Shown one piece after another: positions 4,347 through 50,200 of a DNA stretch of 64,000 nucleotides. The notes under the pieces were generated by a model. It did no database searches. It saw only the letters and a program-made list of their open reading frames with translations, and was not told where the DNA came from. The stretch is taken from positions 124,001-188,000 of the forward strand of contig WARS01001888.1 of assembly GCA_008933995.1 (NCBI GenBank), given 5' to 3'. The DNA is from Datnioides undecimradiatus. Its lineage: Eukaryota > Chordata > Actinopteri > Lobotiformes > Datnioididae. Positions within the stretch are counted from its first letter, which is position 1. Every line of letters begins with the position of its first letter. The position numbers were made by a program, and so were the translations under genes.

Positions 4347-7165
4347 CTGCAGAACTTGAAGAGGATCTTCTCAAAGACCAGAACTGGACCGGTGCTGCCC
4401 AGGATGGTGAGAGGCTGACCGGCGAACAGAGAGTAGGCCACGCCCGTCAGAGATGCCCCGAACAGAGACTCTATGGCACTCTACCAGAGAGAGAGGGGGT
4501 TGGTGAAGGTCGCACCTGTGAGGACATGTCTGCTCATCATCGCTCGGGTTCTTACTATGTTTCCTTTGGTAGCTTCTCCCAGGAGACCGCCAAACGTGAT
4601 GACAGGTGACATGCAGGCGCAGTACAGGAAGAGGACGGACGCCAAACACTGCAGGCTGAGGGCGTCTCTGATGTCACTCCACAGGAAGGGAGCCTTCCTC
4701 CGGACGTCATTCACCAAACCGCCAAAGATCCTGACGGTCAGAGGAGAGAGCGTGATAAAACATGAGACGCCGTGCGCAGGAAGCTGTGATGTAACACTCA
4801 CGTGGCAGATTTGGAGGCCTGTGATTGGCTGCTTGGAGGGTAAACATTCATTATTGACGGACTGACAGACCTCAACGATCAATTGTTAATCAACCATGTA
4901 CGGACTGACCTCCCGGTCTGCTGCAGCTCCGGCCCTGTGTGATGCTCTGCCTCCTTGCCTGTGTCACCGCTGTGGGCGGAGCCGTTAGGGACGGACGCCA
5001 TCTTCCTCTTCTCCTGCAGAGGAGCAGATGAAGACAAAGAGCTGAATGATCTGACCCCACGCCAGCCCGAGGCCTCCTGATGGCGAGCTCACCTGAGACG
5101 GGACGCTCTTCGGGGGTTCGATGCGGATGCTGGGGTCCCATTCGCCGGGAGGAAGCACAGTCACCTGATCAAGAAACTCATCAATCCCCGACAGCAGGTC
5201 GTTCCTGTCCTTCGCCTTGTAGGCAACATCGTGGAAGATCTAACAGAGAGAAGGCAGAGCCTGTCAGAGGACGAGTCTGAGTGGGCGGAGCTGCAGCTCA
5301 CCTGTCACCTGTCGCCTGTTCCACACTACTGTGTATGGGAGATACGCGCTGAATCAGCTTTTTGTCAGTTTTTATATGGAATCCTGGAGAAACACTGAAA
5401 CTAACTTTAATTAATGAGGCGCCACTAAAATCATCTTCTGCAGGAATTCAGACATTACCCAGAGCTGGCTCTGAGTTGGCTGCAGCAGAGATGAGGAGCA
5501 GCTGCAGACGTGTGATCACCTCAGTGACATCACTCGACTCACCTGTGGACACTCTACACCTGGACACAAACGCTGATGCAGCAACATGTTTGTTAATTTA
5601 AACTAATATAATTACTTATAACTAACTAATAAGTAATACACTACTCACAATAAGTTAGGGATATTGTTATTTACATGAGTGCTTTTCCTATTTGGTCTGA
5701 ATTTTAATGAAATAAGTAAAGGTCCCTTTGATATTACTAATAATGAATGAGAAGAAACACCATTTTCATTAGTTTAATATTTATTACCCCCAAAATTTAG
5801 ACAATAACAAGGATAGCCCCAAATAACAAAAACTGACAATGTCAGTAGCGGGTGTTTCCACCATTTGCCGCAATGACAGCTTGACAGCGACGTCTCATGC
5901 TCCTCACTAGCCTCATGATGTTGTTCTGAGGCAATGCGTTCCATTCTTCCACAAGTGCTACACGCAGTTCTGCCAGGTCCCGTGGGGGTGGGGTACGATC
6001 ATCCAGTCTCTGCTTCAGCTGGTCCCAGACGTGCTCTATGGGGTTCAGGTCAGGGGACATTGCTGGCCATACCATATGAGGCACTCCGACTTCCTGAAGT
6101 CGAGCTGTGACAATTCTGGCACGATGTGGTGGAGCATTATCATCCATGAACAGAAAGTTGGGGGTGTGCTGGTGGAATTGGGGGATGATGATGGGTTCTA
6201 TGATGTCTCTGAGGTAAGAACGTGCAGTGACTGAGCCATCTACAATAACCAAATCTGTTTTGCGCTGACTGGTGATGCCTGCCCAGACTGTTGCACCTCC
6301 TCCACCAAAGCGAACCCTGGGGACCATGTTGACCTCAGCGTATCGCTCACCTCGCCTTCTCCAGCAACGTTGACGACAATCATTTCTGTGCAAGGTGACC
6401 CGACACTCATCAGTGAACAGGACGGTAGACCACTGCTGCATTGTCCAGGTCACATGGTCTTGTGCCCACTGCAAACGTTCACGGCGGTGTCTTGGTGTCA
6501 GTGGAGTCACCTGCAACGGTCGTCTGGCACTCAAGCCAGTGACGTTGTGTGTTCATGGCTGTTTGAATGATGAACTTGGAATGACTTACTGACAATACCA
6601 GCTTTTTATACCCACAGAATGTTGAAATTGATGCCACATTGAAAAGGGTTGTCTTTTTTTGGTATTGGCCCCAATATGTAAGGCACACTGTACACAGTGA
6701 GACCATTACGTGGAAAACACAAAATGAGGTGTGTCTATCACCCCAATACAATTGCCTCCCTATCCCAAAAATCTCTGAAGTGAAACAAACACCGTATGTA
6801 TGACATCCACTGAGTCTCTCACAATATCCCTAACTTATTGTGAGTAGTGTAATTATAACTAATATGATCGAAAGCTCCAGCTCAGCTACTAAAAGGCTCG
6901 TTGAGTTAAGAATATAAATATAAACATAAACATAAATACGTATATGAAATGATTCAAACAGCTCCATGCGACCGCTCTCAGAGTTATAACCTGCTCCACC
7001 AGGAGGCGCAACACCTCAGCATACACACAGTCGCCATGTTTAACCTGTGGCCCTGAACGCATCATCGCCTCACCTCGTCTGTCATCAGCGTGGCCATGGA
7101 GCGTCCGATCTCGTGGTACTGTGGACCTTTTCCAAACGGGCCGAGCAGCAGGAAGAGAAACCTGC

Positions 7166-14300: not shown

Positions 14301-15396
14301 CGTGGCCACGTACGGTTTGCTCCAACGCTCGCCGCCGTCTTCCACGTCCTCCTCAAACTTCAGCCACCTGAAAACACACCAGAGTTAACCAAACGTACCA
14401 GAGCACACGTGATGACAGACTGCACCATTAACTGTAAAAATTAATTCTGCATAACTTCAGGTGTTAATCTGATTTAAAGGAGTGAGTTCTATATAAATTC
14501 AGCCCGTACAGTCGTCATGAACGGGGAAACTAGCTGCAGAGACCAAACCGTTGTTTGTACCAGGCTGTAAACATGTTTACTGCTGCATTTTAACATGGGG
14601 GTCTATGGGGACTGACTCGCTGCTGGAGCCTCTGGTGGACACTCAGGGAACTGCAGCTCTGACGCTGCAGCTCCATTCAGTTTCGCCGCTGCGCAGCAAT
14701 GATCCCCACGTGAGGATAAAGAAGGAACACGCCTGTGCAAATCCAGGATAGTCAGACAGACTTAAGATATCAACATTAAAGCCAGAGGATTTGTGGGCAG
14801 GTCATCTTCTCTGATGATGAACCCTGAACACATCCTGAGCAAACAGCAGAGTGAGCTGCTCCATCTGAAGTCAGAGAGTCATCCTGAATGTGAACAAATC
14901 TGCGCGCGTCCTCGCCTGGCCGTCTCCTTCCACTCCTGGAAGTCTCCATCTCTGAAGGCCAGCTCGTCCAGCTCGGTGAACAGGTCGTGGGGGATGTGCT
15001 CCTCGTCCCCATCCTCCGTCCCGAGGATGAACTGGACCCTCTGGGACGGCGTGTCTGCGGGGACATCTTCATCAGGTAAACAGTGTCTGATCGGCTGAGC
15101 GTGTGTGTGAGCATGTGTGTAGACAGACCATATGTGGGTGACTCCCGTCCGTCCTCACGGTCTGAGCGGACCCGTCGTTTCCGGTGGTGGCGGTGTCCTC
15201 GATGGCGGTGGCGCCTTCGACTCTGTCGGCCCAGAGGAACGTGAACGCCGACGTAGACGGCTCTGTGACCTGACGGAGGGAAGAGTCACACTATACAAAC
15301 TGTTCGGCTCCACCAGCGACTGACGACAGGATAAACACAGACGACTCATCTTTGCTTCTTTCTGTTTAACAGTAAACACACACAGAAGCTAATCTG

Positions 15397-37550: not shown

Positions 37551-38550
37551 AGGAGACACTTTACGTGTTGCTCTCAAGTTTCTGACTCATTACCAGCTAC
37601 CCGCTCAGGCTACATGATTCAAACCGTTTTAGAAATAATGTTTCCGAAAGTCTCTGCTCGTCCTTTGGCAAAACTTCAGTTATCAAACTAATGTAAATCC
37701 AAGCTGGGGATTAAATCTGACATCTCATCAGAAAGCTAGAAGAATCATGAAATCAAACAATCTGAGCCGTGTTGTTGGCGTGATGTCAGAAACCTGAGGA
37801 GCTCCACACGCCTTCACTTTAGTTAGCCCTGTAGCTGATGAGCTTTGTCCCTGAAGTAAAAACACAATATCTGGTTTAAGACCCACAGAACCTGAGCCAT
37901 ATGACCAGCGGCTAACATTCATGCTAGCTAGCTGCTAGCTGTTTCCACTAAAAACAAACCAGAACTATTATTTAACATAAACAGCCTCGGTAGCTGCAAC
38001 CTTCATGCTAAACGTGTTAGCTAGCTTTCAGATAATTCAGTCAGTTGGTCTAAATGGTCTGTAGACGTCAGTCGTCCTGCAGCAGCTCGAGCTCCTGGGG
38101 TCACGTTTTCTGTGGTGTCCTGATGTTTCTCAGTTTCCTTTCAGAGGAAACTCAAACCTGTAGTCAGCTCCAATACTCAATTAATGTTTATTATCTGATG
38201 CTGTAAGAATGAATTTCATCTCAGTGAAGCTGCTGGAAAACAGCTTCATCGTGAAACTCATCACAAACATTTAAACATTTTTTGGTTTTTGTTCATAAAT
38301 ATCTTTAATTTATGACGTTTATCTTGTTTCTTCTGCTCATACTATAAAACATCTGTTCTGCATTGGCCTGAAGTCACACGACCACACACCGACTCACCTT
38401 GCAGATGTCTGGTGTGCGTGTATGTGTGTGCGTAAACGGTGGTCATATTTATTTATTTTTACCTTTTTGGTTTTCAGCTTCCTGTTGTTTGTTAAATGTG
38501 TTTCATGATGAAACTGAGTGAAGCCATAAGCTGAAACACATTGGTTTGAC

Positions 38551-38556
38551 AATAAA
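38551..38556 (+). terminator. polyadenylation signal, IgGFc-binding/lectin gene
   Basis: AATAAA in GACAATAAAGTTG, 1.0 kb after the stop codon. No other plus-strand gene end is nearby. Confidence 0.5.
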
Positions 38557-39208
38557 GTTGTTCTTTAAACTAAACGGGTTTCTGGAGTTTTGTCGTCGCC
38601 AGACTTCAGATTTATGGCACAGAGAAGAAACTGAGTGCATCGACTCAAAAGTTCAAAGTTCAAGCGTGAGCGTTACAGAGAGTTTAATCTGCACAGCAGA
38701 TCAGTGCAGCGTGTCTGCAGACACACAATAATAAACATTTTAATTTGATACCAAATTATTTTGTTATTTACAGAAAACATCACTGTAGCCTCTGTATTAT
38801 GGTCTATAATAATAATAATGATAATATCTAATTATATGACACTGGTCCCTTGTTCTCATTAAATGTGTCTATATAAATAAATTAAATAAAGAATTAAAAG
38901 GTTTTGGTAAAGAGTTTATTATATGTCCATGTAGACAGTAAATCCTGACATGATATGATGATTAATAATAAACATGCCAATAACAATCATAACCTTTCCT
39001 ATAAATATGACTAAAACAGGAAGTAGGCACCCTGGACACTTTACTTGTACGTCTAGCATTTATAAGACTATGCAAACGTTTAATAATTGTTTATTACACA
39101 CTGTGACGCAGTCATAAGCAGATTCTTGGACAGTTTAAGCGTTTGATAATGTTCAGTATTCGGCAACAATCGCAGTTTTTCCTATGAAATCACATTTTAC
39201 AACAGTGT

Positions 39209-39214
39209 TTTATT
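39209..39214 (-). terminator. polyadenylation signal, minus-strand Siglec-15-like gene
   Basis: TTTATT on the plus strand, so AATAAA on the minus strand, about 180 bases after the stop codon. Confidence 0.5.
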
Positions 39215-39390
39215 GAATTATCACTCACCAGCTGTTCATACAGCAGCTTCCACTGATGGGTTATAGTTGCTCTGATGACTGAACATTAATAGTGTGTCAT
39301 TAACCATTTATTAACAGTTATTAGCTGATAAATACTAATACAGGATGTTAATGAAGAGTTGGTCTGAGCATGATTTGATTTGTATGCAGG

Positions 39391-40707
39391 TCATTTCCAC
39401 CAGCAGCCGTCTCCCTGCAGAGCTCCTCCCTGCACCATCCACACCCCCATCCCCAGCAGGAGGAGCACCTTTGTTCCCAGAGACACCGCCAGGAGGAGCA
39501 GGAGAGGCGGCGACGCCCCCTTCACTGGCAGAGTGGGTTTGGGCGCCGCAACGTACAGGGTGGACTGCTCTTTGCCCAGTGGGTTGGAGGCGCTGCAGGT
39601 GTACTGCTGGCCCGACTCCACGTCCGTCAGCTGGCTGACGGTGTGGAAGTGAGAGGCGGAGCCCTGAGCCAGAGGCCCGACCAGTGACCCCTCCAGCAGG
39701 TCGTTCGGCCCGAGCCACTGGACATCCGGCAGTGGGGAGCCCTGGACCCGGCACAAGGCTCTGAGCCCGGACTGCTCACTGCCCTCCACCGACAGAGCCA
39801 GGATCTTTGGAGGAGCTGCGGGAAGACGGAAACGTTAAACAGCACAGGTGCCTCCTGGTGGCAGCGGTCACAGTTCAGTGACAGACAGTCTGCATGTTAG
39901 CATGTTAGCTCTTAGCTACAGATGATCTGATCAGGACTTCAGAAGTTAAACATCTGGATCTCTGTCATCAGACTGATGGGTTTTAATCCATCCAGCATGC
40001 ATCTCGGTGTAAAGGCAGTTTCAGGTGTTTGGTTCCTACCCTCCACTCTCAGCCTGGTTCCCATCTTGTCCTCGAAGCTGACATGTTCTCGTCCCTGAAC
40101 CTCCACCCGGCAGTAGTAGCGCCCGCTGTCCTGCAGGGTGGCGCTGTTGATCCGCAGTGACAGGTCGTGCTCCCTGGGGTTGCCCTCCAGCCGGTAGCGC
40201 TGGTCCTGCTGGGGCCCCGGCTCGCAGGTGGGGGTCCCGGGCCGGCTGGTGCAGTGGTACAGGACGGTGGCACCAGGGCCGTGGCCCAGACGCCACAGCA
40301 CCTGCAGGGAGGAGTGCTGGGAGTGCTGCGGGTGGCTGAAGGTGCAGGGCAGCACCACCGGGTAGCCCTCGATGGCGCGCACCTCTGACTGCACGTTCAT
40401 GGACCAGCCGTCGTCCCCGGAGCCGAGCGCTGCAGGGAGAGCGGGACGAGAAGAAGATCCATCGTTCAAGGTCACAACTCAACCCAGACAGGCTGCAGCT
40501 GATCCAGGAGGCGTTAAATAAGGTTTATTTAAACCATAAAAACAAACATTCCAATAGCTGGAGACTGGGGAAAGGGAACTGAAGCTGTCAGACAGAAGTA
40601 ATGGAGTAATGAGGTGTAACGGAGTAGAAACAAAGTGAAGTACCAACAGACTGGATTTGTACTGTAGCAGATTTACGTCCTCCAACTGAACCTGCTGACC
40701 TTTAAGA

Positions 40708-40768
<61 letters not shown>

Positions 40769-40820
40769 CACCTCCTATAACAGCTAACAGCAGACTCAAA
40801 GTGACCAGCTGCACGTCCAT
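39391..40820 (-). CDS. siglec15l: Siglec-15-like receptor, activating type (transmembrane lysine)
   Basis: Exons 40772-40820 (signal peptide MDVQLVTLSLLLAVIG), 40040-40429 (V-set) and 39391-39815 (C2-type domain, membrane segment, stop) give 287 residues. The V-set keeps VLPCTFSHPQ, GNPREHDLSLRI and RYYCRVEV. The arginine after the cysteine is the position used by human Siglec-15 to bind sialic acid. The second domain has ALCRVQGSPLP and YTCSASNPLGKEQSTLYV, close to human Siglec-15. The membrane segment LLLLLAVSLGTKVLLLLGMG contains a lysine, as in human Siglec-15 where it recruits the DAP12 adaptor. The cytoplasmic tail is very short. It is divergent to the ITIM-type gene starting at 42259. 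Confidence 0.88.
40711..40766. repeat. (TG)n microsatellite at the Siglec-15-like intron 1 donor
   Basis: 28 TG units starting three bases from the donor of the signal-peptide exon. On the transcript it is a (CA)n tract, which can act as an hnRNP L splicing element. Confidence 0.9.
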
Positions 40821-40922
40821 AGTGAGACTGCTGGAGACACGAGGCGAGGTGAACAGGGACGAGAACACGAGTGTGTGTGTGTGAGTGTGTGTCATGTTCA
40901 TGTGACTCGGTACCTCCCAGGC

Positions 40923-40957
<35 letters not shown>

Positions 40958-42258
40958 ACACTTCCTTCATGTCTATTTTCTGTTGTCAGAAGTTTGTTTG
41001 CATCGAGTGAAACAGTGAGACGTGATAGGATGTTCACAGCTGGGTCACTGAGCTACAGCCCGTGTTTAGATGTGTTTACGTGTGAACAGTGAGGTCACAG
41101 GGAGCAGAGGTACAGAAGCTTAAGGTCAACAAGATGGAGGCAGATGATTCGCTGTGGTGACCCCTGAAGGGAACAGCTGAGAGAAGCAGATGTGTCTAAA
41201 ATCCAGGATTTATAGTTGTGTTGTGTGTAAAGATGTCTGCAGCTCTCCGTCATGTCTCTCTGTGTCTGACAGATTAGTCCACATCATTCAAAGCTGATCA
41301 TCTTTCCAGCAGCAACAGACCTGAAACTCTGAAAACGCAGTTTTCTGCCCGTCAAAGAGAAAGAGAAGTGGTAAACACACTTCAGCTCCTTCGTTTCGAC
41401 TAAAAGCTTCTTCTTTTTGTCCCAGGGACATTTGATTTTAAATGTTTATTTTATTATTATTTTATTATTTAGCCTCCTCCTGCAGTTTCCTGAGTGTTTT
41501 AATATTCAGCAGGACACAAACACATTAAACAACACATGTTGAGTCGTACGCCGCGGCGATCTGCTGCTTTGACTGGCGTTAGCATCGTCTCAGACTCTGT
41601 GGCTGCTCAGGCTGGTACATCGCACGCTGTTTTATCAATGTGTTGATCTCATTTTAAAATAAGTTACACATGCAGGACAATGATGCAAGACAACAGCATT
41701 TCTAAATATGATGATATGAAGCAGAGGAAGCTGCTTTCAAATGAAATGGTTTTAAGGCAGAAACTGAGGCTGAATTCAGTTTTTGCACTTTTTAAAAACA
41801 GTTTTCATGAGAAATGTTTGTCTCATGTTCATTTAAAGCAAATTAAACCAAAACAGATAAAGTAATCTAATTTAAAGACAGTAACTGTACTCAGTTACTC
41901 ACATTTAACATTTTGTCTTACGGAGCAGCTGGAGCTCACTTTATTTCCTGATTTTTTTCTAATTTCACAATTTTATATGATCTCACTTTCGCACATCGCT
42001 CATCAGTCGCACCTTCCTTTAAATCTTGTGTGAAAAGGTTTTCTGTCTCATTTCAGCTTCGCTTTCTCTCGGTGAGACAGAAAACACATCAGATCGAGAA
42101 ACAGAGAACAAGAGTATGTAAAATAAAACCTAAAGCCCCACGACGTGTCCTCTGGGTCAACAGGAAACATTTAGTTTCATATGACACATTTCACAAGACT
42201 TCCTGAGTTTGGCCTTGACAGTCTGATGGCGGCAGGCGGCTGCTCTCATTGTCTGAGG
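40821..42258. promoter_or_regulatory. shared divergent region between two Siglec-15-like genes
   Basis: 1.4 kb separates the two start codons. It contains TG microsatellites at about 40869 and 40927 and AT-rich DNA around 41440. No gene is seen. Both promoters should lie here, but I cannot point to specific boxes. Confidence 0.4.
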
Positions 42259-45200
42259 ATGTGGCAGCAAACGCAGCGTTTCTGTCTCATTCTGTCGACC
42301 GTCATCGCAGGTAAGACCCTCTCCTCTGTGTTCAGGCGGCATTGTCTGGTTTGGTGACTCTGTTCCTTCCCCACGTTAAAGACACCAGTCGGTCGTTACT
42401 AAGGAGGAAAATCCAAATGCACCTGGCTTCAGCTCTACCTGCCGACACCTCCGACTGGACTTCAAACATCTCTCAGTCCGTGTTGCTTTTCCTACTAGAT
42501 CTCTGCTTGTGCTGTTATTCTATCTGTACGTCGCTTTGGATAAAACACTGAAGACTTGTAGGATTTCACAGTGTTTGTCCTGCGACTTCACCTTTGAAAC
42601 ATCAGAAGAATCACAAGACATGGATTAAAAGTCCAAATCTGTGCAGCAGATGTGGAGATCCTGACTTTTAAAAACACCAGATCCTGGCTAAATGCTAACA
42701 TCACTCCGCTAACACGCTAACTGTGCTAACGTTAACATGCTGATGTTTAGCAGGTGTGCTGTTTACACAATGCAGAGGTTGTACCTGCTGTCAGGCTGCA
42801 ACTCACCATCCTAGTTTAGCATGTTAGCATACTAACATTAGTTAATTATCAGTAGGAGAGCCGCTGAGGCTGATGGGAAAGTCGTTACCTTTGCAGGTGT
42901 TTGTTCATAAATCAAAGCGTAGTCATCACAGCAACAAGCTGACTTCCTGTTTGCGCCCCACACAAAGCAAAGTGATGTAATGGGACACTTTCGAAATGTT
43001 ACTGGACTGAAGAGGTTAAAGTTCATTTTTGTGATGCTCAGCAGATGTTTTACAGCTGCTTCATTCAATGATGGTCTGATTGGTCAATGTGGGTCATGTG
43101 ATAAAGTCACCTGTCCCGGGGCCCTACCTGGGGGCTCAGGCTGAGATCTGATATCATCAGTGACATCATCAGGGTTGAAGTCACAGACTGAAGAGCATGA
43201 TGATGTGTTCACATGATAATGATGATGATGGTCCTAAACCGGATCCGTCCTCAGGTTCAGGCCCAAATCTGTAAAATCTGTAGCTGCAAACTGTCATCGC
43301 CCCCCTCTCTTGATCCTCCTCTGCAGGGTCTCTCCCATTTTCTTGGGACATGAAGGTCTTTCCGGTGGTCAACGTCCCCAGAGGAGAAGACACCGTCCTC
43401 ATGTGCTCCTTCACCCATCCAGGACAACAGACCTACTCAGGCAGCATCACAGTGAAGTGGCTGGCGAGACAACCCAAAGCTCAGCCGTTCTTCAGCTGCT
43501 CGGTGAGAAACGACTCCTCGGAAGAAGCCAGTTACTGTCTAGCGAGCGGACTGAGATATTCGCTGAGGGCAGATCCTCGCTGCGGGGAGCTGTCACTCGT
43601 CATCAGGAAGGTTCACCTGGGTGATAACGGGACATACTTCTGCAGAGTGGAGCTGGATGGCTGGCGGCGTAATATCCAAAAGGAGACGCATCTGTATGTA
43701 ACGGGTAAGATCTCACGTTGCAGAGATCACACTGACTCAAAGACAACACGAAATATCACTAAAATGTTACAAACAGCCTTTTACCTTCATGTTTGATGGA
43801 CAGTGAAGGCAGTTTAGGAAAAAATTAAATATAATAATCATAATCAGAGAGGAAGTGACACCTGTTTGCACCTGAGTCCACTATGTTGCACCACCATGTT
43901 TCTACAGTAGCCCAGAATGGACAAACCACACACTGAGTCTGCAGAGGGTCGGTGCAAAAATGAAAAACGTCTATTGCTTTCCATAGTTATGAAACATTAG
44001 CCCACCCCTGTGGGCAGCAGCATGCTAACAGCCTTGTGCTAAAATTGTCATGCTAACAGCATTGTGTTTAAAATGTTGTGCTATGAGCTTTGCGCTAACA
44101 GCAGCATTCCAAATGTATCATGCTAACAGCATCATGCTAACAGCAACATACTAAATGTGTCATGCTAACAGCAGCCTGTTAAATGTGTCGTGCTAACAGC
44201 TTTGTGCTAACAGCATTGTTTAAAGTGTTGTGCTAATTGTGTTGTGCTAACAGCATTTTGTTTAAAGTGTTGCGCTATGAGCTTTGCTCCAAATGTATCA
44301 TGCTAACAGCAACATGCTAAATGTGTCATGCTGACCGCACCATGCTAACAGCATCATGCTAACTGCCTGACCATGACTTTGTCTTGTAGCTGCAGCTCCG
44401 TGGCAACACCGAATCATGCAGCAGTTTAGTTTTTCAGAGTTTTTAACAGAGACGATGTTCTGCATTTAGTGTTCCTCTAAAACAAACCGACATGTTTATG
44501 TTTGGTGTGAAGAAATGTTCTGGAAAGCAAAGTGAAGCTGTTAGCATGTTAGCTTAGCATAGAGAAGGCAGATTGATAAGGGGGTGCAGGTTGGTGAGTT
44601 TTTGTCTTGACTGACTCGGATCACGTGTGTCACATGTTTTGCTGCAGTCAAACCTCAGATCCTGAGCCTCTCCGAGGTCGAGACAAGCTCCGGCTCAGAT
44701 GGCGCCACCCGCAGTCTGCGGTGTGAGGTGGAGGGCCACCCGCTGCCCACCATCACCTGGCTGTCTGACTCCAAGAGCCTGACCGGAGACCAGGTCCAGA
44801 CTTCTCCAATAGGCCCACACGGGCTGGTCAGCACTGTGCCGTACCTGGAGGGGGAGGTGCTCACCTGCAGGGCGGAGAGCCGGCTGGGCGGAGCAGAGAG
44901 GCGGTATCCACAGAGTAATACTCTGCTGCTGACCGTGACGGCGTGCGGCCTCATCGTCCTGCTGCTGCTGCTGCTGCTGACAGGACTCATCCTGTGGAGG
45001 AGGAGCAAAGGTGAGCTCACAGCGCTCATTCAGCCGGGTCCCCAGGAGGAAGAGTCAAAGTACTGACATGAGGGAAAAGTAATCAGATTACATGCAGATA
45101 CCAGCTGTTACACACAGGAGGAGCCTCAAACGTCCCTGTTCCTCTCATCTGCAGCTCGAACTGAAGCATCTGCTGTGATCGGAAACACTGAGACAGCTGG

Positions 45201-45848
45201 GTGAAGACAGACAGGCAGAGAGAGAGACAGACAGGCAGAGAGTTAGGCAGGCAGACAGAGAGAGGCAGAGAGACAGACAGGCAGGCAGACAGGCAGAGAG
45301 GGAGACAGACAGGCAGAGAGAGAGAGAGACAGACAGGCAGAGAGACAGACAGACAGACAGACAGAGAGAGAGGCAGAGAGAGAGGCAGAGAGACAGACAG
45401 ACAGGCAGACAGACAGACAGGCAGAGAGACAGACAGAGAGAGAGGCAGAGAGACAGACAGACAGGCAGACAGACAGGCAGAGAGACAGACAGACAGACAG
45501 AGAGAGAGACAGGCAGAGAGACAGACAGACAGACAGGCAGAGAGAGAGACAGGCAGAGAGACAGACAGAGAGAGAGAGAGAGACAGACAGGCAGAGAGAG
45601 AGGCAGGCAGGCAGGGAGACAGACAGACAGAGAGGCAGAGAGACAGGCAGAGAGAGAGGCAGAGAGACAGACAGACAGGCAGAGAGAGAGGCAGAGAGAC
45701 AGACAGAAAGACAGAGAGAGAGACAGACAGGCGGAGAGAGAGGCAGACAGACAGACAAAGAGAGAGACAGGCAGACAGAGAGCGAGGCAGAGAGTCAGAC
45801 AGAAAGACAGAGAGAGAGACAGACAGGCAAGGAGAAAGGCAGGCAGGC

Positions 45849-45879
<31 letters not shown>

Positions 45880-47068
45880 GAGAGACAGACAGAGACAGAC
45901 AGACAGACAGACAGGCTTTTCCTTCGGCTGACAAACCCTCGACTCTGCTGTCCGTCGTTTTACTTTAGTTACTTCCTGTTTCCTGTTTCCTGGACGTTTC
46001 CTGGTGTGTCTGTGCCTCCTGTCGTTATTATTTTCACCTGTGGTTTGTTAGTTCAGTTTCCTGGTCTCTTCCTGTTTAGTCTTCTAGCTGACGAACCCCT
46101 TGACATATTTCCTCAGTCTTTCAGTGGACGTCTTGTATAATATTTGTGTAAAAATCAAAAATCCCAAACTGGCATAAACTCGTCTCCATGTTTCCTCCTC
46201 AGGTCCAGACAACGACTCCCCTGTGTATGAAAACACCGAGGACGGTAAAGTGCTTCAGCCTTTTATCTCTCACACATTAAAGAGTTTACACCAGATAACA
46301 CAGTGACCAGTGTGATGAACTGTGGGTGGAGAAGTGGTTTATGGGTGGAGTGTCTGTGACTCTGCTCAGAAGCTGCTTTCTGAAACACATCCCTTCATTA
46401 ACGACTCGCCTTCGATGCTCTCTGTGGACTCTAAGCATCAGTTTGTGTTTCTGCAGTGGAGAACCTGCAGGACACGACTGAGCTGCATGTATTTTACAGC
46501 ACCGTCACTTTGACCCGTGAGTTTCCCGAACGGCGTGCGCATCTTTACTGCCCGTGTTCATGAACAGTGTCAGGTGTTTGTTTGTGTCACACCTGCTGAA
46601 CGTCTGTCGTCTCCTCTTGAAAATCATGTGTCTCTGACCATTTTCACCTGTGTGTCATTCGTTCATTCGTTCCTGCCCTCCTGGTCTCTTCCTGGTATTT
46701 TCCTGTTGCTCCTGTCTCTAAATGCCAGTGTTTCAGAGATTTATGTTTTAAATCACGTGTTCAGCAGCACACGCGCTGTTCCTGTGCACCGCTGGTTTAG
46801 TTGCTCTGTCTGCTCGTCTTCACACACTGCGACCCGCTTCTGATCAGATGATGCTTCTCTGTTGCAGGCGAACATGCAGGTGTCAGTCCAGAGAGTACCA
46901 CAGGTGAGTGACCGCTCTCACTTCCTGTTCCTGTTACAGGAAGCCGTGTTTGTTGACTGTTGTGTGTGAAGTGCTTTCTTCGTGTTTCTTGCTCTCTGGT
47001 TTCAGTTCTTTAAGGGATGAAACGTTGTTGTTTCAGATGTGCTGTACAGTCCTGTGAAAGCTCCCTGA
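42259..47068 (+). CDS. Siglec-15-like receptor, inhibitory type (two ITIM-like motifs)
   Basis: Seven phase-1 exons: 42259-42310 (signal peptide), 43327-43704 (V-set), 44648-45010 (C2 domain plus membrane segment), 46203-46244, 46457-46516, 46868-46903 and 47037-47068; 320 residues. The V-set has [29 protein letters not shown] and FCRVELDG, keeping the arginine used for sialic acid in Siglec-15. The second domain has [19 protein letters not shown] and [13 protein letters not shown]. The membrane segment ([19 protein letters not shown]) has no charged residue, followed by WRRRSK. The four short tail exons carry SPVYENTED (YxN, Grb2-type) and two ITIM-like motifs, VFYSTV and VLYSPV. This predicts SHP-type phosphatase recruitment. 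Confidence 0.85.
43980..44360. repeat. degenerate ATGCTAACAGCA tandem array
   Basis: About 20 imperfect copies of TGTCATGCTAACAGCA-like units in the intron between the V-set and C2 exons of the ITIM-type receptor. Confidence 0.75.
45201..45915. repeat. GACA/GGCA minisatellite, about 700 bp
   Basis: ACAGACAGGCAGAGAGAGAG-type units, the same family as the 27.6-kb array but with more GA runs. It lies in the intron between the membrane exon and the first tail exon of the ITIM-type receptor. The long frames through it are artefacts. Confidence 0.92.
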
Positions 47069-47265
47069 CCAGGTATGTAAACATGGAAACATGAGTTTTC
47101 TCTTGCATGAGATCATGTGCAGGTCGTCTCCCTGTGTCTGTGATGTATTCTCACACCTGCTGCTGAATGAGCAGCACTTTGTTCTTTATCTTTCAGCATC
47201 AGCAGCAGAGGACGTCCCGTCAGCATCACATGGTTTCGGACAGATGCTGGTTTGATCCATCAAAG

Positions 47266-47324
47266 AGAGGAGGTGGCGGCGGTGGCGGCGGTGGCGGCGG
47301 TGGTGGCGGCGGCGGCGGCGGCAG
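47266..47324 (+). repeat. (GGC/GGT)n tract in the 3' untranslated region
   Basis: About 18 GGC/GGT triplets, some 200 bases after the ITIM-type receptor stop codon; G-quadruplex capable. An ATTAAA near 47468 could be the poly(A) signal. Confidence 0.8.
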
Positions 47325-47479
47325 CTGGGATGTTTTAGGAGCTTTGAAATTATATTTTATTGTTTTCTGTAATAATATTGTGAATAGCTCTGATATATTT
47401 TAATGGTTTATATGATATTTTATTGTCCTTGTGCTTATATTCATCACTTATGCACTTATGTTTGTTATTAAACCCAATG

Positions 47480-49310
47480 TGAACAATGTGAATATGTATT
47501 TATTCATCTTAATTAATTGCTGCTCATACTGGAGCCTGACTGGCTGTAAATCACTGTGATGTCATAATGTGATGAATGTGGAGACAAACAGACGCAGTCA
47601 AAGATCCCAGTGAAGAGACTTTAACCAGTTTAGCTCAGTTGTGTTCATACTCTCCAGCAGGTGGCGCCAGAGCTCAGCTTAACGCCAAATCACCCTCCAC
47701 AGACATGATGAAACACCTGATTCAGAACCAGAGAAGACGCTCACAGAGCAGAGATGTGAATGAGCCTTCAGCTGTCCACATACTTTTGGCCACACAGTTT
47801 CAGGCCGGTGTCGGGGTCACACTTTGAAACCTGAAGTCTGATTTTTGTTTCCTTGGTTTATTTGAACCTTTTTTACAGCTGGGAGGTTTTTTAATCATCT
47901 GAAAAGCAGAAACCTCTGTGTGGTGTGGTGAAGCAGCTGCAGCTCCTGCGGTGCACCTGAGGCTTTGGCTGCGGCCGCTCACCTGCACCTGACCCACCTG
48001 GCGGCTGCGCAGGTGAAACACGCGGTCAGGTTTGATTTTGAACTGGTCAGTTTGAGAGACGGCCTCAAGTTTCACTTCAGAAGCTGCTGCAGGTTTTGGC
48101 TTCACTTCCTGTTTCTGATGCTGTGAAAGTGTGTGTGTGTGTGTGTGTGTGTGCGTGCGTGTGCGTGTGTGTGTGGTGGTGGGGGGGTTGTATCTACTGG
48201 TGTGTGTGTTTAACCACTTTGTAACCACAGGATGTGGTTTAAACTGGGGAGCATCCGTTGTTACGTTGCCATGGTGACGTGGCACTGCTGCAGAAACGCT
48301 GCTGAGATGAACTTCTTCTTCTGTTGCTGCTGTTAAATCCAAACATTTCATCGCCATTCACAGACTACAGCTCCCATGATGCCCTGACAGCGTGCTATTG
48401 ATCTCTGATCTGCCCTCTGATTGGATGTCCATAGTTTATGGACACCACAGTGCTGTTCACTGCAGCAGCATCTACACGTTAATAACAAGAAGTGTCAACA
48501 CAAAATCACTCACAATGAGGAAATACACAAAGCAGCAAATCAAGTTCAAAAGGCAAAAACTAGAACAAAAGGCGGCCACAAGGGCGGTAGGAAAAAGACA
48601 ACAACAAAATCACTCTTACAAGGAAAAACTAATAACTAGACAAAGTAACAAAGAACACGAGAGCAACTCTGGACGCTGGTTGTCGGACATAACAGACACG
48701 ACAAACTGGCACGAGACGGAGGGAGATGCGGACTTATATACAAGAGGAGATGGGGAACAGATGGAAACAATCAGGGTGGGGAAGACAATCAGACTGGCGG
48801 GAAACACGAGAGGAAGGGCAAGCCACCTGAAACGATAGGGAAGTTAGTACTTTCAAGATAAAACAGGAAGATACGAGACACGACCGACAAAATGACTTGA
48901 CCAATTATTTCACCATGACACTGTACTCTCAATGCTATAGCTTCTGATTGGTGTGCACATTTAAACACGAGGATCCCAGAGCCATGTGACCATTTACCTG
49001 CTCAGTCAGTGTCAGGGGTCATGATGGATGATTTCTGTACAGAGATGTACATGAATGAAATACTTCCCTGGATGCTACTACTACAAACTAAAGGAAAGAA
49101 ATGAGCTCACATTTCTAATACATCTCTGGGGTTAAAGGAACATTTTAGGCTTCATTTAAAGAGGCTCCTATTAAAGAGCAGTAACTAAACAAAGGATTAG
49201 GTCAGGTAGACTTCGGATCGATTCTTTAACAGCCGCCCCTTCAAATATAAAGTATTTGAATTTAAATAGAATCTCAAGGAAACTGGATCGAGGTCTTCTC
49301 AGCAGGTGTT
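47480..49310. other. intergenic; one transposon-end fragment and an AC-rich repeat-like block
   Basis: A TGTCCACATACTTTTGGCCA piece lies at about 47778, and a TG tract at 48124-48175. A purine/A-rich segment at 48510-48830 (ACAGACACGACAAACTGGCA) looks like a dispersed repeat, class unknown. No supported gene. Confidence 0.5.
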
Positions 49311-49319
49311 TTCTCTGTA

Positions 49320-50200
49320 GGTGAAAGGGTTACTAATCGGGCTACAGGTCTAACATAATGCTTGTTCTTCCACAGCAACTTCCACTGTCCGCAGCTTTCC
49401 ATCTTCACTGGACATCACTTGAGTTATTTTACCCACAGGCCCCTTGGGGCCCCATGCACATAACCACTGCTCCTTCTTTCATGTTGCAGCTGTCCGTTCC
49501 CACATACCTCCACAGTGAGGGGCATTTGTTGGGTTGAAGCAGAAACGTATTTGTTGGTTCTCTAAATGTTCCTTTAGGATTGGACTGAGGTTGGAGAATC
49601 CTTCCTTAAGCTCCTTCTCTCCTCCTTTAAAGCTGGTTCCACAGTCAGATAATAGCTCATAGTGTTGCCCTCGTCGGGCAACAAAGCGGCGCAAAGACAT
49701 GAGGAAACATCAGCATCAAGGCTGGTGATTATCTCTGTGTGAATACAGCGAGTACTTAGACATTTAAACAACATTCCCCACCTTTTCTCCTGTCTTTGCC
49801 CTGCTTTGCTATGAAATGGACCAGAACAGTCAGCACCTGTGGACCAAAAGGGCGGCTTCCAAAGTCGCAGCCTACAGGGAGGCAAGTCTGCCATCTTGGG
49901 GTGGTTTGGTTTAGCACGCCATTTCCTACAATCGTTACATGTCCACTGGTGCTTTTTAACAGCCTCCCACAGAGAATCCAGTAGGTGCGGCGGATGGCTG
50001 CAGGTTATCATTGAAAGGTTTAACTAGGAGGCAGGTTGTAGGATGTTTGGAGTCAAGAACTATAGGGTGGATCACATCTGGGTCTAGAGTTTCCAGATGC
50101 CTGATCTACCACCTACTGTAATGGCCTCAGCAACATTAGGAGTGGGCAGCAGTCGGCTCTGTGGGGAAACTCCTTTAGCATCTGTCAAAGCTTGAAATCA
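49320..50200 (-). mobile_element. BEL/Pao LTR retrotransposon fossil, integrase region
   Basis: Minus-strand translations show pieces typical of the Pao/BEL pol C-terminus: a CSHPPHLLDSLWEA and CNDCRKWRAKP zinc-binding-type part, and the integrase-core-type stretches SDCGTSFKGG and NPTNAPHCGGMWER. Only this internal piece is seen. No terminal repeats, gag or reverse transcriptase were recognised. It is broken, with at least two interruptions, and looks old. Confidence 0.75.

Follow-up and report, generated by a model that had tools for sequence, protein, structure and literature searches.

Does a fish genome keep, next to Siglec-15, a relative of this receptor that signals in the opposite sense? 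Siglec-15 is described in PMC11652361 as a DAP12/DAP10-coupled receptor without an immunoreceptor tyrosine-based inhibitory motif (ITIM). The question arises from a stretch of 64,000 nucleotides of Datnioides undecimradiatus (contig WARS01001888.1, positions 124,001 to 188,000; C277 124001-188000 in our contig numbering; hereafter the window), where two receptor genes stand head-to-head, one on the minus strand (40820-39391; the minus gene) and one on the plus strand (42259-47068; the plus gene). A first-pass annotation had described them as adjoining, oppositely transcribed Siglec-15-like genes of one layout, the former activating and the latter inhibitory, and had proposed that they form a paired-receptor system. 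Our analysis bears out the gene structures and points to a DAP12-type, activating Siglec-15 orthologue lying beside an old Siglec-15-like paralogue whose ITIMs would make it inhibitory, an explanation that we regard as probable.

Rebuilding the exons from the sequence gave open frames for both genes, and all eight introns of the two gene models are GT-AG introns in phase 1. Both predicted proteins consist of a signal peptide, a V-set, one C2 domain and a single membrane segment with borders set by eye, and Pfam reported the V-set (PF07686) and further immunoglobulin (Ig) domains above cut-off in each. The minus gene has three exons, separated by two introns, and encodes 287 amino acids. Its membrane segment PPLLLLLAVSLGTKVLLLLGMGVWMVQ holds a lysine at position 262, as does the membrane segment of Siglec-15, and only 12 residues GGALQGDGCWWK follow before the stop codon, in agreement with the short-tailed, lysine-bearing receptor that had been predicted. 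The best match of the full-length minus protein among all PDB chains was Siglec-15 (7zoz; 4e-42). Judged by its domains, its conserved residues, its membrane lysine and its reciprocal best matches (PDB on one side, its own genome on the other), the minus gene is the predicted Siglec-15 orthologue of this fish.

The plus gene comprises seven coding exons and encodes 320 amino acids from the ATG at 42259 or 331 from the ATG at 42226. Its membrane segment is uncharged and is followed by a tail spread over four exons, for which the starts given earlier (46203, 46457, 46868 and 47037) proved exact. Three tyrosines occur in this tail, within YENT, VFYSTV and VLYSPV, and the latter two motifs both match the Siglec ITIM signature, which PMC7226832 gives as [I/V/L/S]-x-Y-x-x-[L/V]. 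When the 61-residue tail was shuffled 100,000 times, 0.5% of the trials contained at least two ITIM matches. With VFYSTV and VLYSPV in predicted exons the plus gene would therefore count as a receptor with cytoplasmic ITIMs, and its two ITIMs together with its uncharged membrane segment suggest that it is not Siglec-15 proper. A donor, CAG/GTATGT, was found by eye after the stop codon (GT at 47073); exon 7 probably continues to this donor and is followed by a 3' untranslated exon from 47197, this intron of the 3' untranslated region also being placed by eye.

Sequence searches, which on the genome side covered 581 Mb in 497 contigs, support the placement of both genes within the Siglec-15 lineage. 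Siglec-15 (7zoz) was the best PDB match of both V-sets (minus 4e-26, plus 2.7e-16), with Siglec-5 as runner-up for the minus V-set (2e-10) and TIM-3, 25 bits behind Siglec-15, for the plus V-set (1.9e-8). The residues of 7zoz fit the human numbering, and the species of the PDB Siglec-5, -8, -10 and TIM chains are presumed. As a control, the V-set of a fish classical Siglec (L012) reached 62 bits against MAG/sialoadhesin, compared with 25 against Siglec-15, in the same database. Human Siglec-15 gave 25 genome matches at E<=1, the foremost being the minus V-set (8.6e-25), the plus V-set (2.1e-14), the minus C2 (3.7e-7) and the V-set of a MAG-like gene (6.6e-7), and the plus C2 was not among the 25. 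The names MAG-like (L015) and TIM-like (L020) were given by eye, L012 alone having been checked against PDB. Each window gene had its neighbour as top non-self genome match (3.1e-10 among 29 matches; 6.5e-10 among 30), and the second non-self match of the plus gene was a TIM-like gene on C467 (7.7e-5). No further close copy of either gene appeared among these 29 and 30 scored matches, both counts being lower bounds. A profile of human and minus Siglec-15, built without the plus gene and searched against 59 sources, scored the plus V-set at 72 bits, the next V-set at 44.5 and the MAG-like one at 40; three multi-Ig open reading frames (ORFs) reached totals of 45-54 bits with a best single domain of <=28. 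Neither V-set had a match in NCBIfam, a prokaryote library.

A tree of V-set and C2 together placed the two window genes with human Siglec-15 on one side of a branch supported at 100/100 and three classical Siglecs of fish on the other. A V-set-only tree of 12 rows, obtained after the four rows L039a, L018 and two Ig kappa, which are long or remote, had been removed from a 16-row tree that left the classical Siglec clade unresolved, grouped the classical Siglecs at 98/97 and the TIMs at 99/99, each without the three Siglec-15-like rows. Membership of either gene among the classical or CD33-related Siglecs is contradicted by the 98/97 and 100/100 branches. The searches, the control and the V-set plus C2 tree together suggest that Siglec-15, rather than the classical Siglecs, is the nearest kin of the plus V-set.

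Within the trio of the V-set plus C2 tree, human Siglec-15 grouped with the minus gene at 54/57, and neither human with plus nor minus with plus was rejected (p 0.37 each). Identities were of similar size throughout, at 37.8% for human and minus, 36.8% for human and plus (31% in the alignment of the V-set plus C2 tree) and 32.4% for minus and plus. As human Siglec-15 is about equally far from the two genes, they may have been duplicated as early as the separation of fish from tetrapods; fast evolution of the plus gene is the alternative. The stronger proposition, that the plus gene represents a second Siglec-15 lineage which predates the split between ray-finned fish and tetrapods and was lost in mammals, is possible, although we consider it doubtful. 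If it is true, Siglec-15 began as an activating/inhibitory pair of which mammalian Siglec-15 is the surviving activating half.

The binding faces of the two receptors were compared with that of human Siglec-15, for which the C95-C104 bridge has been called a unique feature, R143 named the key residue, and W44, Y87, V150, R153, Y154 and E155 listed as contacts in simulation (PMC10264397). In the alignment W44, C64, C95, C142 and R143 are kept in both genes. The equivalent of C104 sits at the matching position in the minus gene but is displaced by four residues towards the C-terminus in the plus gene, giving a cysteine spacing of 13 instead of 9. The two genes have in common with human, salmonid and zebrafish Siglec-15 the V-set with one C2, Arg143, the C64-C142 pair, W44 and two loop cysteines, which in the plus gene have the altered spacing (PMC7226832, PMC10264397). 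Unlike Siglec-15, neither gene keeps Y87; both carry other residues in place of V150 and R153, the position of Y154 holds F in the minus gene and Q in the plus gene, and E155 is kept in the minus gene only, the alignment of the plus gene after R143 being uncertain. The sialic-acid-binding arginine that the first-pass annotation had read from CRVE is indeed present in both V-sets, but Arg143 alone is no proof of sialic-acid binding, with Tyr87 lost and Tyr154 altered. Since R143 and W44 are kept and other contacts are changed, binding of sialic acid by both receptors is plausible, with differing fine specificity; because the binding faces differ, the two probably do not read identical ligands. 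Zebrafish Siglec15 is reported to show no strong binding to the glycans tested in PMC7226832.

These differences bear on whether the genes are true paired receptors, sharing one sialylated ligand and the same myeloid cells and keeping each other in balance in the way of Siglec-11 and -16, which we consider unlikely. By one definition, paired receptors have homologous ectodomains, signal in opposite senses and overlap in their expression, and Siglec-11 and -16, whose ligand-binding exons are kept similar by repeated gene conversion, provide a precedent of adjoining Siglec genes with one inhibitory and one activating member (PMC5701461). The head-to-head arrangement with 1.4 kb between start codons, the opposite signalling design and the presence of R143 and W44 in both genes would all suit such a pair, and homology of the ectodomains is evident from the mutual E values of 3.1e-10 and 6.5e-10. 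Against it, the ectodomains are identical at just 67/207 positions (32.4%) in the three-way alignment and at 36-37% per domain in pairwise comparison, and most of the other ligand-contact residues differ between the genes. No sign of gene conversion was found, as a DNA comparison of the minus and plus genes gave two matches of 19 and 33 bases (E 0.07 and 0.25); ligand-binding exons homogenised by gene conversion, as in Siglec-11 and -16, are not seen here. The window genes differ from Siglec-11 and -16, which belong to the CD33-related group, in their Siglec-15 lineage as well as in ectodomains only 32-37% identical. Of the earlier proposal, the shared lineage and the contrast between a DAP12-type lysine and an ITIM tail are supported, and pairing of the Siglec-11/-16 type is not, which leaves the paired-receptor reading partly supported.

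Inhibition by the plus receptor depends on tail exons predicted from splice signals, phase and ITIM tests. At the loosest splice setting, the 2.09 kb tail region held five open phase-1 candidate exons in comparison to 1.99 expected from a background drawn from all of the minus strand and from the plus strand with 38000-48000 excluded. Three of the five are the modelled exons 4, 5 and 6; of the other two, one is exon 4 with a different start and one is an unrelated stretch that the model does not use. An ITIM was encoded by none of the 112 background candidates (0/112). Stricter settings gave 3 against 0.96 and 2 against 0.64 expected, and at the strictest the sole candidate to pass was a longer form of exon 5. 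Exon 7, which carries the second ITIM, passes no setting, owing to an acceptor tract with a pyrimidine content of 53%. These counts, taken with the failure of exon 7, make the tail exons credible, not proven. Alternatively, the tail exons may be unused, or used by some transcripts only, leaving a short read-on tail without ITIM; the frame of exon 3 is open to a stop at 45066, out of a maximum of 9 the donor of exon 4 scores 6 and that of exon 5 scores 7, and the weak acceptor tract of exon 7 points the same way. Four successive exons that keep phase 1, candidate exons 2.5 times as numerous in the region as expected and the lack of ITIMs in the background candidates speak against this, and we judge it decidedly improbable. 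A genome search with 56 residues of the tail, an insensitive query at this length, returned three matches at E<=10, of which two were its own exons and the third had E 2.9, and thus gave no convincing homologue. Separately, more than half of the intron between exons 3 and 4 is taken up by a simple repeat of the GACAGACAGGCAGAGA type, seen by eye over about 0.7 kb (window ~45200-45915, plus strand).

Several results weigh against the reading of the plus gene as an ITIM-bearing member of the Siglec-15 lineage. In addition to the failure of exon 7, the lysine that characterises the Siglec-15 membrane segment is absent from the plus gene. The V-set phylogeny that had been suggested as a check did not recover a Siglec-15 group, this clade appearing in 6% (16 rows) and 15% (12 rows) of 200 bootstrap trees, and the 12-row tree put the plus gene beside the TIMs with weak support (47/78); the approximately unbiased (AU) test on that tree did not reject a Siglec-15 clade (p 0.45). 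The V-set plus C2 tree has six rows, with no TIMs or mammalian classical Siglecs, and its MAG-like and plus rows are long-branched. An AlphaFold model of the plus V-set, built from two sequences, had a mean predicted local distance difference test score (pLDDT) of 51, which made it unusable, and gave no PDB fold match at E<=0.001. When the full-length plus protein was searched against PDB, a DSCAM chain scored above Siglec-15 (93.7 against 87.9 bits; 9.4e-26 against 5.7e-24), the DSCAM score being the sum of seven weak stretches of which the best reached 18 bits, and that of Siglec-15 resting on one stretch of 87.5 bits over V-set and C2. It is most unlikely that the plus gene stands apart from Siglec-15, as a TIM-like receptor or another V-set protein with CRVE by convergence, for although the TIM family (HAVCR1/2, TIMD4) has a CRVE-like F strand in its V-set, sits beside the plus gene in the 12-row tree and is the second-best PDB family of the plus V-set, Siglec-15 beats TIM-3 by the 25 bits given above with one alignment covering V-set and C2, the top genome match is the adjoining Siglec-15 with the TIM-like gene on C467 second, and both window genes carry a second Ig domain, of C2 type in the plus gene, where TIMs have a mucin stalk. 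The TIM group at 99/99, which leaves out both window genes, likewise speaks against membership of the plus gene in the TIMs.

If the two genes are a Siglec-15 orthologue and its ITIM-bearing paralogue, binding of a ligand would bring the minus receptor, by way of lysine 262, into clusters with DAP12/DAP10, and activating signals would then pass through Syk/PI3K, a route known for mammalian Siglec-15. Ligation of the plus receptor would lead Src-family kinases to phosphorylate both ITIMs, and the phosphorylated tail would recruit SHP-1/SHP-2 and dampen signalling. From general knowledge of such motifs, the YEN site of the plus tail could bind Grb2-type SH2 domains. The short tail of human Siglec-15 is described in PMC11652361 as containing YENL and no ITIM-like motif, and for this reason the YEN of the plus gene may, as a matter of speculation, be an ancestral element.

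In the open-access literature fish Siglec15 is presented as an activating receptor whose membrane lysine is conserved. The plus gene departs from it in having no lysine and two ITIMs. Inhibitory tails with ITIMs, as predicted for the plus gene, have been reported in fish CD22 and MAG, which were suggested as substitutes for the CD33-related inhibitory Siglecs that fish genomes lack according to the same source (PMC7226832). Unlike fish MAG and CD22, neither window gene falls in the classical Siglec V-set group (98/97). An ITIM-bearing relative of Siglec-15 would add a third candidate beside CD22 and MAG as an inhibitory Siglec of fish, and its position beside Siglec-15 suggests that the lineage once carried both signalling signs. 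No ITIM-bearing Siglec-15 relative was found in searches of open-access literature, which left subscription papers and annotated fish proteomes outside, and an unnamed database entry may well exist. Zebrafish siglec15l has been reported as a marker of dendritic-like brain cells (PMC12698085), and for this and other fish genes named 'siglec15-like' the membrane segment and tail should be checked before a function is assigned. Siglec-15 itself is presented in literature abstracts as a target for drugs against cancer and bone disease.

Table. Predicted exons of the two receptor genes and the gap between them, in window coordinates
Feature	Position	Strand	Content	Evidence
Minus exon 1	40772..40820	-	start codon (ATG 40820) and signal peptide MDVQLVTLSLLLAVIG; donor GGAG/gtgagc, phase 1	hydrophobic N-terminus
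Minus exon 2	40040..40429	-	V-set; equivalents of human W44, C64, C95, C104, C142, R143	PF07686; 7zoz_A 4e-26
Minus exon 3	39391..39815	-	C2, membrane segment with lysine 262, 12-residue tail GGALQGDGCWWK, stop	
Plus exon 1	42226..42310	+	signal peptide; in-frame ATGs 42226 and 42259; donor CAG/gtaaga	
Plus exon 2	43327..43704	+	V-set; equivalents of W44, C64, C95, C142, R143	PF07686; 7zoz_A 2.7e-16
Plus exon 3	44648..45010	+	C2 and uncharged membrane segment, then RRSK	Pfam
Plus tail exon 4	46203..46244	+	GT-AG, phase 1	splice-candidate test
Plus tail exon 5	46457..46516	+		exon model; splice-candidate test
Plus tail exon 6	46868..46903	+		exon model; splice-candidate test
Plus tail exon 7, coding part	47037..47068	+	ITIM VLYSPV, stop	acceptor tract weak, 53% pyrimidines
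Intergenic head-to-head gap	40821..42225		1,405 bp, minus start codon to first plus ATG	

The head-to-head gap is a possible candidate for a shared promoter. Cores of AGGAAGT, which we take to be of the ETS/PU.1 type, numbered 2 in 40821-42258 in comparison to 0.74 expected, an excess that is not significant. Synteny with human SIGLEC15 was sought through urea-transporter (SLC14) genes, presumably its neighbours, and all 15 matches lay on C65, C328 and C10 with 0 on C277; inspection of the longest ORFs, by eye only, showed no recognised human SIGLEC15 neighbour gene within 50 kb to the left or to the right of the window.

The genes present are in keeping with a teleost. Directly left of the gene pair lie a C-type lectin domain (PF00059, 37068-37550, plus strand) and an IgGFc-binding FCGBP-like stretch (PF17517, 34466-35950, plus strand). 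Further left, a C1q-domain exon (PF00386) was found at 2271-2855 on the plus strand, and a second C1q copy is probably present at about 730-1104, the antisense ORFs 730-1104 and 2553-2957 being closely similar by eye. Also by eye, pieces resembling an SLC4 bicarbonate transporter were seen on the minus strand at 14776-15285 and again left of the window at locus L053, together with a Tc1-type transposase-like ORF (5842-6552, minus strand) and, to the right of the pair, a retroelement integrase-like ORF (49574-50023, minus strand) for which Pfam gave no match. Elsewhere in the genome, the control V-set L012 lies with two other classical-Siglec-like V-sets (L013 and L018) within 12 kb at G000:C307:27330737-27342838, L012 being nearest to MAG/sialoadhesin and the others classed by eye.

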